A DNA stretch of 64,000 nt from Terriglobia bacterium (GTDB lineage: Bacteria > Acidobacteriota > Terriglobia > Terriglobales > Acidobacteriaceae). Below are positions 40,911 to 53,220 of the stretch, piece after piece. Position 1 is the stretch's first letter; every line of letters begins with the position of its first letter. The stretch is from NCBI GenBank assembly GCA_020073165.1, contig JAIQFP010000006.1, positions 186,001-250,000 of the forward strand. The letters run 5' to 3'. Position numbers and translations under genes: made by a program. The notes beneath the pieces are model-generated. The model was not told where the DNA came from. It was given only the letters and a program-made list of their open reading frames with translations, and ran no database searches.

Positions 40911-40914
40911 AAAC

Positions 40915-40956
40915 GGACCTTGGACCTCAGACCTTGGACCTCAGACCTCGGACCTC
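40915..40956. repeat. Heptad-word repeat, six units
   Basis: Six tandem 7-bp units alternating GGACCTC and AGACCTT types, starting a few bases after the ffh stop codon. Confidence 0.8.
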
Positions 40957-41025
40957 AGCGCCGGCAGAAAATATGGGCGACTTTCCTGCAACTCTGCGGA
41001 CGATCAAACGCGAATTGCCGTGGTG

Positions 41026-43064: not shown

Positions 43065-43640
43065 ATCGGAGAGTCGGGAATAGCTGGCGAGTTCATTACT
43101 CTCGCCCGCGTCCTCAAGACCCAGGGACGCCGCGGCGAGGTTGCTGCGGAGTTGCACAGCGACGTTCCGGACCGCTTTCGCCCAGGCATGCGAATGTCGG
43201 CCCTCGCGGAAGACGGCAGCCGCCGCGAACTGAAAGTAGAAGAACTCTGGCCCCACAAAGGTCACGTGGTTCTGAAGTTTGCAGGCGTGGATTCGATCTC
43301 CGATGCCGAAGCGCTGGTGGGCTGCGAACTGCAGGTGCCGCAAGCCGAGCGCGCGAGGCTTGAGTCCGGCTGGACCTACGTCAGCGATCTGGTCGGATGC
43401 ATGGTATTCGACGGCAATCGCGAGATCGGCAAGCTTGAAGATGTGCAGTTTGGCGCCGGCGAGGCGCCGCTCCTGATCGTGAAGGCGGGATCGAGAGAAT
43501 TCGAAATCCCCTTTGCCGAAGCGTACCTGAGGAGCGTGAGCGTAGAGCATAAGCGCATCGAAATGCAGCTGCCCGAGGGCATGCTGGAAATAAATGCGCC
43601 GCTGACGCCGGAAGAGAAAGAACAGCAGAGAAGAAAGTAG
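43065..43640 (+). CDS. rimM: Ribosome maturation factor RimM
   Basis: About 191 residues. The conserved N-terminal RimM domain (GEFITLARVLKTQGRRGEVA) is in frame upstream of the first standard start (TTG 43152) and is clearly part of the protein. No ATG, GTG or TTG occurs in that upstream stretch back to an in-frame TGA. The best site is ATC at 43065, preceded by AGGAAG and falling where family members begin. The PRC-barrel C-terminal domain follows (GWTYVSDLVGCMVFDGNREI). RimM assists 30S head assembly by binding S19. Confidence 0.92.
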   Translation: MGESGIAGEFITLARVLKTQGRRGEVAAELHSDVPDRFRPGMRMSALAEDGSRRELKVEELWPHKGHVVLKFAGVDSISDAEALVGCELQVPQAERARLESGWTYVSDLVGCMVFDGNREIGKLEDVQFGAGEAPLLIVKAGSREFEIPFAEAYLRSVSVEHKRIEMQLPEGMLEINAPLTPEEKEQQRRK

Positions 43641-43712
43641 TCAGGAGTCGGTAGTCAGGGGTCAGCAGTGGTAGTTGATTGCCGACTCCTGACTACTGAC
43701 TGCTGACTCCTG
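43639..43712. repeat. Heptad-word palindromic repeat
   Basis: The left arm holds about four units of the type AGTCAGG (43639-43666) and the right arm four of the type GACTCCT (43684-43711), the inverse of the left. A 28-bp imperfect hairpin results. It fills the space between rimM and trmD. Confidence 0.75.
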
Positions 43713-43721
43713 GTCCCCGAA

Positions 43722-50545: not shown

Positions 50546-50635
50546 GCTCTCAGCAACTGGCAGTCAACAGTTAGCACTGCGGCGTTGCGGTGTGTAAAAT
50601 TGCTTTCTCCGCGCCTCCCTGTCTCCGTGGTGAAT

Positions 50636-51730
50636 ATGGCTTTCTCCGATTTTCACGGTAACGCCGAAGTCATCCGCCGCTTGCGCGAGATGCTGGCCCA
50701 CCAGCGCTTTCCGCAAGCGGTGGTTCTTGCCGGCCCCACCGGTTCCGGCAAGTACACCCTCGCCCTGATGCTGGCGAAGGCCATGAATTGCCTGTCGCCC
50801 CCGACCACCGACGGCTTGCCGGATTTCTGCGGCAAGTGCTCCAACTGCCTCCGCATCGCTCAGGCCGAGGATCTCGAAGCCCGCGTCGCCGAAGCAGTGG
50901 AGGCCCGTGAGAATCTGCGCGAGACCGACAAGAAAGAAACCCGTCTGTTCGTCCAGACTCATCCCGATGTGCTCATCATCCCGCCCGACCCGCCACAACT
51001 GATGATCAAAGTGGACCAGGTGCGCCGCGTGATCGAAACCATCTATTACCGTCCCGGCGACGCCAAAGAGCGGGTCTACATCTTCACCGACTCCGCCTTC
51101 ATGAAAGAGGCGGCCAATTCCCTGCTCAAAGTTCTGGAGGAGCCGCCTGACTTCGCCACCATCTTTCTATTGGCTGAAAATCCCGGCGAACTGCTGCCCA
51201 CCATCCGCTCGCGCTCCATGATTGTTTCTCTCGCTGCCTTGTCCGTCGAAGAACTCGAAAGCTACCTGGTGAAACATCGCCCCGACTGGACAGCGAAACA
51301 GCGCGCTCTGGTGGCCCGTCTCGCGGAAGGCGCCGTGGGACGCGCCCGCAGTTTCGATCTCGCCGCCTACACCGCCGCCCGGGCCCACGCACTTACCATC
51401 CTGAACTCCGCCCTGCGCACCGCCGATCACAGCGACCTGTTCAAGATCACCGAAACCTACCGCGCCGGAGTCGAAGGCCGCGAAAAGACTGAAAGGCTCC
51501 TGCGTACCCTCTATTCCCTGCTCCAGGACCTGACCTTTCTCAACTCGGGAACCCCCGATCTGGTCCGCAACACCGATATTCACCCTGATCTGAAGAGGCT
51601 GGCCGAAGCCGCCGATTTCGCCTGGATCACCGCCGCCGCCGACCGCCTGGCCGAGGTCGAGCGCGGCATGCGCCGTAACCTGTTGCGATCGCTCTCTCTG
51701 GATGCCTTTGCGACGGCAATGGAGAGGTAG
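50636..51730 (+). CDS. holB: DNA polymerase III subunit delta'
   Basis: About 364 residues. AAA+ clamp-loader fold with VVLAGPTGSGKYTLALMLAK (P-loop), zinc-binding cysteines (CGKCSNCLR), VYIFTDSAFMKEAANSLLKV and LEEPPDFATIFLLAE, and the IRSRSM sensor. It is part of the loader that places the sliding clamp on DNA. ATG at 50636 is preferred to a GTG two codons before it. An unusual acidic helical segment (EDLEARVAEAVEARENLRET) follows the zinc module. The stop codon touches the first unit of a heptad repeat. Confidence 0.92.
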   Translation: MAFSDFHGNAEVIRRLREMLAHQRFPQAVVLAGPTGSGKYTLALMLAKAMNCLSPPTTDGLPDFCGKCSNCLRIAQAEDLEARVAEAVEARENLRETDKKETRLFVQTHPDVLIIPPDPPQLMIKVDQVRRVIETIYYRPGDAKERVYIFTDSAFMKEAANSLLKVLEEPPDFATIFLLAENPGELLPTIRSRSMIVSLAALSVEELESYLVKHRPDWTAKQRALVARLAEGAVGRARSFDLAAYTAARAHALTILNSALRTADHSDLFKITETYRAGVEGREKTERLLRTLYSLLQDLTFLNSGTPDLVRNTDIHPDLKRLAEAADFAWITAAADRLAEVERGMRRNLLRSLSLDAFATAMER

Positions 51731-51863
51731 CACTCAGCATTCAGCATTCAGCCATTCCGCAGTTGATGACGTCATCCTGAACCCGGCTTCAGCGGGGTGA
51801 AGGATCTTGCGCGCACCACCGAGACTCTTTGCCGGCTCAGTGCTGAATGCTGAGTGCTGACTG
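51727..51863. mobile_element. MITE-like palindromic element with heptad arms
   Basis: Left arm 51727-51754 (AGCATTC-type units) and right arm 51836-51863 (GAATGCT-type units) are inverted and match at about 24 of 28 positions. The 81-bp interior contains a REP-like unit starting GTCATCCTGA at 51771 and ending GAAGGATC. No transposase is encoded, and target-site duplications could not be decided. Confidence 0.55.
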
Positions 51864-52023
51864 GGTACTTTCGTCTCAAAGTGATTGCCCCACCACCATT
51901 GGCTCATTGTCATTCCCACCTTGCCTGTGCTACGGTTATCACAAATTTCACGCCTCTGTACCACAATCACAGCAGCGCCGTGTTGTGGCCCGCGACAAAA
52001 AAGCGTGTCGGACAGGTGGTGCC

Positions 52024-52446
52024 ATGACCATAAAAGATACGATTGATTCCATCCCAGCCGAGCGATCCGTCGAAGCAGAAGGTTTTGCCAACCGCAAGCT
52101 GATCCGGCCTTCACTGAACCGCACCGACCACAACCACAACCACAACCATACCGCCGCCCCCGTGGGAGAGCGCCGCCCCGACCGCCCGGAGCGTAACGAT
52201 CGTCCTAACGGCCCCAGGAAGGCCACCCCTCCAGAACAAACCAATGCCGAGAATTTCTATTATCAGAAGCAGATGCAATCTCGCACCCCCATGGTGGTGG
52301 TCCTGACGGATGGGGAAGAGATTCACGGCGTCATCGAGTGGTACGACAAGACCTGCATCAAAGTAACCCGCAACGGCTCCCCTAATCTGATGATCTACAA
52401 GCCTTCCATCAAGTACATGTTCAAGGAAGCTGAGAAGAGGAGCTAG
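52024..52446 (+). CDS. hfq: Hfq-like RNA chaperone with long N-terminal extension
   Basis: 140 residues from ATG 52024. The C-terminal 65 residues form an Sm/Hfq domain: NFYYQKQMQSRTPMVVVLTD, GEEIHGVIEWYDKTCIKV and MIYKPSIKYMF, where the second Sm motif has YKPS in place of the usual YKHA. The first 73 residues are an extension that includes HNHNHNH (about 36-42) and an Arg/Pro/Asp-rich linker, not part of classical Hfq. Hfq hexamers pair small RNAs with mRNAs. Metal or RNA binding by the extension is inference. Confidence 0.88.
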   Translation: MTIKDTIDSIPAERSVEAEGFANRKLIRPSLNRTDHNHNHNHTAAPVGERRPDRPERNDRPNGPRKATPPEQTNAENFYYQKQMQSRTPMVVVLTDGEEIHGVIEWYDKTCIKVTRNGSPNLMIYKPSIKYMFKEAEKRS

Positions 52447-53112: not shown

Positions 53113-53220
53113 AGTCTCCTTGGGAATTGTGTAATCGAGTAATTCTGTAATTTGGTAATTTGAAAGCGGAGGGTCCACCTGAAAATTCTCAAATTACCCG
53201 ATTACCAAATTACGAAATTC
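53113..53220. repeat. A+T-rich palindromic element with octad arms
   Basis: The left arm has four 8-bp units of the type GTAATTTG (about 53123-53154). The right arm has units of the type AAATTACC (about 53185-53220), inverted. The element lies immediately upstream of dcd. It has the same design as the heptad elements but period 8 and a very different composition. Confidence 0.6.

Follow-up and report, generated by a model that had tools for sequence, protein, structure and literature searches.

Anatomy of the intergenic unit

The window analysed here, a single stretch of 64 kb from a genome we denote G000 (G001 being that of a sister species), contains a hairpin in the gap between a holB-like and an Hfq/Lsm-like gene, with arms made of heptads and a REP-like palindrome in its loop (Table 1). 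Named from their translations, the upstream gene is one we take to encode a DNA polymerase III delta' homologue, and the downstream gene presumably encodes an Hfq/Lsm-like protein. The first base of the 5' arm (51730) is also the final base of the holB-like stop codon. Read directly, the arms pair best between 51730-51753 and 51834-51857 (22 of 24 matches), with an alternative register of 51726-51753 against 51834-51861 (24 of 28), while a repeat search of the window sequence returns inverted arms of 22 nt at 91%. A preceding sequence-only reading had described inverted 28 bp arms with about 24 matches, which holds in the alternative register, but the exact ends it gave (51727-51754 and 51836-51863) lie one to two bases out of place and match at 6 of 28 positions. 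Its description of the interior as a REP-like repeat is borne out by the CGTC-tagged palindrome, the interior sequence reading CGTCATCC...GGATC TTGCGCGC.

Table 1 Features of the holB-like/Hfq-like gap and of a second heptad hairpin in the window
Feature	Position	Strand	Basis and remarks
holB-like gene (presumed)	50585..51730	+	ORF list, sequence; stop TAG at 51728-51730
5' arm, heptads GCACTCA GCATTCA GCATTCA GCC	51730..51753	+	Sequence, repeat search
5' spacer, arm to REP	51754..51769	+	Sequence
CGTC-tagged REP-like palindrome, CGTC-ATCCT...AGGAT-CTTGCGCGC	51770..51814	+	Sequence, pattern scan, DNA fold
3' spacer ACCACCGAGACTCTTTGCCGGC	51815..51836	+	Spacer mismatch search; final 3 bases overlap 3' arm
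3' arm, inverted heptads GGCTCAGTGCTGAATGCTGAGTGCTGACTG	51834..51863	+	Sequence, repeat search
Hfq/Lsm-like gene (presumed), 3' of unit	52024..52446	+	ORF list; anchor for orthologous sites
Heptad hairpin, class AGTCRGN, no REP	43636..43713	+	Inverted pair 43636-43697; sister-species counterpart is site #3

Inverted arms that agree at 20 or more of 22 positions, within a total length of up to 174 bp, occur at two places in the 64 kb window, this unit and the REP-free hairpin of Table 1, and none as good was found in any of 20 first-order Markov surrogates of the window. The unit is more stable when folded than its shuffled versions, reaching -65.2 kcal/mol as RNA (z -5.0 against 200 shuffles) and -33.4 as DNA (z -4.2, 200 shuffles). 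The window yielded no Rfam match at the gathering threshold and no tRNA, and an intrinsic terminator (GC stem, short loop and T-run) was not found in 51500-52100. By inspection of the ORF list, all ORFs crossing the unit continue into its neighbours; the unit thus has the form of a MITE in that its terminal inverted repeats fall within 15-30 bp and it is without coding capacity. Elsewhere in the window, at 53120-53219 and close to an ORF boundary (53192), lies an inverted pair whose repeat unit is eight bases long (GTAATTTG / CAAATTAC), the octad equivalent of the heptad hairpins.

REP-like palindromes and composite copies

The palindrome opens with an unpaired CGTC tag followed by A-T and T-A as the first stem pairs (CGTC ATCCT...AGGAT, 51770-51805), as in CGTC-tagged REPs. 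In the DNA fold this stem is paired, and further pairs appear just 5' of it. Stem, loop and tail taken together depart from that class, the stem being interrupted (5+4+2 pairs) with a loop of 4 and a CTT tail. A medium-stringency pattern finds 21 REP-like palindromes in 500 kb, among them five HH dimers (CGTC outside), one TT and no HT, the orientation preference of CGTC-tagged REPs, and control strings gave no match in the same 500 kb. A looser pattern (47 matches, 19 inside genes) was dropped for tighter ones with 12 and 21 matches. A heptad array lies within 170 bp of 5 of the 21 REP-like palindromes (500 kb), a proportion not clearly above that of gaps with an array (35 of 288).

All or part of the arm-REP-arm arrangement recurs at six other G000 loci (L002 to L007). 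The search for copies in related genomes, proposed by the sequence-only reading, returned near-full-length composites at non-orthologous sites in G001, with identities of 81% (query 16-144) and 79% (10-142 of 151). Three G000 loci (C20, C8 and C29) have the 3' spacer with 0, 0 and 1 mismatches, respectively, and in G001 it occurs with 2 mismatches at two loci and with 3 at the counterpart of the window unit. A reversed spacer, allowed up to 3 mismatches, gave 0-3 matches on each strand of each genome, as numerous as the 3-mismatch matches. The common inner spacer indicates that copying took in the entire unit, spacer included, for at least some composites.

Orthologous sites

G000 and G001 were compared at 19 places with an array in either genome, over aligned stretches of about 97 kb altogether. 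At the site of the window unit both species have arms and REP, with arms that differ in heptad number. Elsewhere the interior changes. At site #14 a 66-bp stretch of the interior matches the sister species at every base when inverted (inverted score 66, same orientation 8-9), with both flanks keeping the same orientation, and at site #19 the arms are present in both species and a REP is recognised in G000 only. Arms and heptads vary too: site #11 has a 3' arm in G001 that is missing from G000, and site #2 has differing heptads at one place in the two species. Site #13 could be followed into L165 (Terriglobia bacterium SRVP_32), both of whose flanks are orthologous (scores of 210 and 113) and which by eye has another palindrome pair between the arms; on this ground G000 is presumed to come from an acidobacterium. 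Among the G000/G001 comparisons listed, we saw no composite new in one species opposite a clean empty site in the other. At the 10 of 19 sites with two arms markable by eye in both species, arms paired better within than across species at five, equally at two and worse at three (sums 372 and 350, not significant), and we therefore make no claim of concerted arm evolution. GACCTYR heptads at 40914-40959 of the window face, in the same gap of the sister species (G001:C34:30882-31016), a 135-bp GGCTCTA/GGCTCTG array, the heptad sequence itself being replaced.

The holB-like/Hfq-like gap was also followed across relatives with the Hfq-like protein as anchor, which has a match in 54 of 61 genomes; 30 loci were scored, 22 of them from family f1, of which 15 have a recognisable holB end upstream. 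A heptad hairpin at the gap is clear in G000, G001 and G010 and borderline in G015 (score 11 against a shuffle maximum of 12), and was not seen in 11 of the 15 scored family genomes. In G010 and, with the same borderline score, G015, the arms are of another heptad sequence and enclose no REP. Family members without the unit thus exist, as the sequence-only reading had asked, but none offers a base-exact empty junction, the flanks being too diverged to align. In the same gap of G051, from another family of the class, an inverted pair 5' of the Hfq-like gene (L082; score 24, shuffle maximum 11) is by eye built from roughly ten-base units resembling ATCGGCGTTC.

That the parts of the unit also occur separately, and that it may be a composite, had been proposed beforehand, and both points hold: REP-free heptad hairpins and heptad-free REPs are both found, and at orthologous sites the interior alters as the arms persist. 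On these grounds we read the unit as a composite of two separable repeats. One alternative is that the REPs alone are mobile: on several independent occasions, and perhaps carried by a RAYT/TIRYT, they would have entered heptad hairpins already in place. REP dimers inside palindromes of A. variabilis and H. neapolitanus provide a precedent in the parts of PMC3733652 drawn on here, and the differing palindrome pair within the same hairpin in L165 and the REP-free arms in G010 agree with it. The spacer ACCACCNAGNCTCTTTG, which lies outside the REP and is common to three loci, is better explained there by copying of a larger unit, and we regard repeated independent entry as possible but doubtful.

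Heptad arrays across the genome and beyond

In 450 kb of G000 we found 29 arrays of period 7 (threshold 17), against 0-6 for each of the other periods 4-13 and 15, and 11 for period 14, a multiple of 7. At threshold 16, 500 kb of G000 hold 49 arrays, 44 of them intergenic. Degenerate, tandem, intergenic and numerous per genome, these arrays have the features of the heptad SSR/STRR class. At a threshold below 17, a scan of G000 (600 kb) and G001 (191 kb) gave 34 paired units and 56 partnerless arrays, 56 of 90 entries (arrays or pairs) being without a partner at the threshold used. The heptad varies by locus (GCANTCA, AGTCRGN, GTCGTTG, GATTGTT and others), and polarity is uniform within each of four heptad classes (9, 8, 6 and 2 units, none opposite; 25 of 25), in a tally that places 9 of the 34 units outside any class and counts some G000/G001 orthologues twice.

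Among the matches listed in relatives, all five pairs of G027, from another genus of the same family, share the G000 polarity, whereas in G051 the polarity is reversed in 13 of 14 pairs and the remaining pair links two adjacent units. In the scan of relatives a reversed-pattern control was mostly lower, and higher in sum in G008, G010, G016 and G031. A perfect heptad pattern scanned over named genomes gave at least 119 stretches, the 80 titles listed coming from Cyanobacteria, Chloroflexi, Lentisphaerae, Verrucomicrobia, Planctomycetota, Nitrospira, Chlorobiaceae, Proteobacteria and Acidobacteria or members of these groups. Among the matches listed, 24 of 114 arrays with full flanks have an inverted partner within 300 bp and 90 do not, some pairs being counted from both arms and the null being 2.9% per flank or about 6% for two flanks; 23 of the 24 partnered arrays listed have a polarity opposite to that of the G000 genus. 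In Acidobacteria gp1 AA119 (L151, from 6556) a longer mirrored structure was noticed, in which heptads of two classes, and the non-heptad spacer that parts them, seem by eye to recur in mirror image.

Arrays of this kind might be neutral simple-sequence expansions, with polymerase slippage favouring a period of 7 and inverted partners supplied by template switching. Heptads are over-represented in many bacteria, for which the parts of PMC4692102 considered here hold a polymerase-contact idea, and the numerous partnerless arrays of G000 and G001 are consistent with such an origin. A single polarity per class, and its reversal in G051 (13 to 1 among the matches listed), would be unexpected if hairpins arose singly, which makes neutral expansion rather unlikely in our view.

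Position relative to genes

By a home-made gene caller that predicts 419 genes in 500 kb, and on which the intergenic count of arrays also rests, an array edge lies within 10 bp of a stop codon in 16 of the 27 non-divergent gaps that bear arrays, while random placement in the same 27 gaps gave a mean of 6.8 and a maximum of 14, none of 2000 trials reaching 16. Most arrays (33 of 49) lie between tandem genes, and convergent gaps are not enriched (4 of 48 hold arrays, against 26 of 184 tandem gaps). The stop-codon adjacency, the tandem setting and the strong predicted RNA fold would all suit a functional RNA, an intercistronic hairpin that protects the holB transcript or separates it from the hfq-like one. 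The hairpin was not seen at this gap in most of the scored family genomes, and a preference for convergent genes is lacking; such a function is therefore, we think, unlikely to account for the unit.

Tests of mobility

The sequence-only reading had called the unit MITE-like and suggested looking for target duplications and for an IS200/IS605-type transposase with matching ends, and neither check came out in its favour. Over 34 paired units the longest word shared by the flanks averages 3.18, as it does in permuted flanks (3.18; 266 of 500 permutations as high). A search for the Y1_Tnp family alone gave six loci, at which a pattern scan found no REP and no GCANTCA pair, the ends carrying other repeats by eye. 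A RAYT/TIRYT as mover was rejected, none of the six loci being flanked by the same REP. Near three Y1 transposase genes (L031, L032 and L034) we observed repeats GGGGACAGACGGGAC / TTCCGTCTGTCCCC, by eye seemingly a separate repeat family.

The earlier proposal would have been undermined by the absence of any second full copy and of any empty orthologous site, a situation that does not obtain, since near-full-length copies occur elsewhere and family genomes lack the unit at this gap. A true MITE, in which the heptad arms are the terminal inverted repeats of a 130-bp element with the REP-like core as interior and a transposase acting in trans, would fit those copies at non-orthologous loci, the inner spacer common to three G000 loci and the 11 family genomes without a hairpin at the gap, but it is very unlikely given flanks without target duplication, six Y1_Tnp loci without matching ends, REPs or heptads, arms whose heptad number varies between species (site #5), REPs and hairpins found apart, and no new composite opposite a clean empty site among the comparisons listed. 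The missing target duplication, variable arm length and separable parts led us to reject a classical MITE as the main reading.

Putative origin of the composite

We conclude that the window unit is probably a composite, non-autonomous intergenic repeat. Its host would be a heptad-array hairpin from a genome-wide class that uses several different heptads, keeps a single polarity within each class and tends to adjoin stop codons, and its guest a CGTC-tagged REP-like palindrome that can flip, vanish or be replaced, some composites being copied whole; any RNA role would be secondary. We observed directly how the unit is built, where its copies lie, the uniform polarity, the closeness to stop codons and the altered interiors between species. 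Slippage or template switching inside the hairpin could change the length of the arms, whose growth would halt at coding sequence, and recombination between the arms could flip the interior. The interior flip is seen at one site (#14) and may instead reflect gene conversion from an oppositely oriented paralogue. A hairpin in the transcript, if active at all, would act as an intercistronic or 3'-end RNA structure and not as a classical terminator.

A far broader proposal would make heptad-armed hairpins one widespread bacterial class of intergenic repeat, present in many phyla, with polarity fixed by lineage and ends at stop codons, propagated by one shared mechanism that copies the hairpin itself, and serving as platforms on which REPs land and are exchanged with arm-driven flips. 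We offer it as speculation that is quite unlikely to hold as a whole, and the 90 of 114 named-genome arrays without an inverted partner within 300 bp (among the matches listed) count against it.

Comparison with known repeats

A full-text literature search, covering few subscription journals, turned up no account of heptad pairs in Acidobacteria, nor any of a REP enclosed by a heptad hairpin. The closest relatives of the arrays are the GGGAATC heptads of Xanthomonas, for which the portions of PMC4692102 used here report 70 and 75 inverted pairs, lying near stop codons and for the most part between same-direction genes. As there, the heptads of G000 are intergenic and tandem, often form convergent inverted pairs, and lie near stop codons and mostly between genes of the same direction. 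The Xanthomonas heptads are G-rich and read as G-quadruplexes in those portions of the paper, whereas the arms described here are without G-tracts, several heptad sequences occur within the one genome and some hairpins enclose REPs. Since the same architecture recurs without G-tracts, what unites these repeats may be the hairpin together with its seven-base period.

The P6b element of the Nostoc tRNA-Leu (trnL) intron provides a second parallel. According to the sections of PMC4476775 consulted, its stems are built of heptads (motif NNTGAGT or TDNGATT) and entire stem classes are replaced. The likeness extends to a hairpin stem of heptads on both strands, to replacement of whole stem classes with the structure kept, and to the class II motif NNTGAGT, which fits GCTGAGT, the complement of ACTCAGC here; P6b lies within a group I intron, whereas the heptad hairpins described here are intergenic and genome-wide. 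The TAACTGA repeats of Beggiatoaceae and cyanobacteria, judged from part of PMC4679880, similarly form numerous intergenic heptad arrays per genome with a patchy distribution across phyla, but they comprise one heptad, with 169 direct sets and one inverted set in the main genome, mostly just upstream of start codons.

For the guest, the relevant part of PMC3733652 describes CGTC-tagged REPs with a stem of 8-9 bp, a loop of 4-5 nt and a tail that is mostly CCA. The palindrome of the window shares the CGTC tag followed by A-T and T-A stem pairs, the predominance of HH dimers and the lack of a linked transposase, and REP dimers within larger palindromes are also reported in that part of the paper; it differs in its longer, interrupted stem, in its tail (CTT, not CCA) and in an enclosing palindrome made of heptads. 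Hairpins that enclose a REP offer a natural experiment on two questions: do inverted heptad arms turn round or swap what lies between them, and what sets hairpin polarity in a lineage? With stop-codon heptad pairs known from Xanthomonas and heptad stems from Nostoc, as described in the parts of those papers drawn on here, the window hairpin is best seen as a variant of an already described type of repeat and not as a classical MITE.
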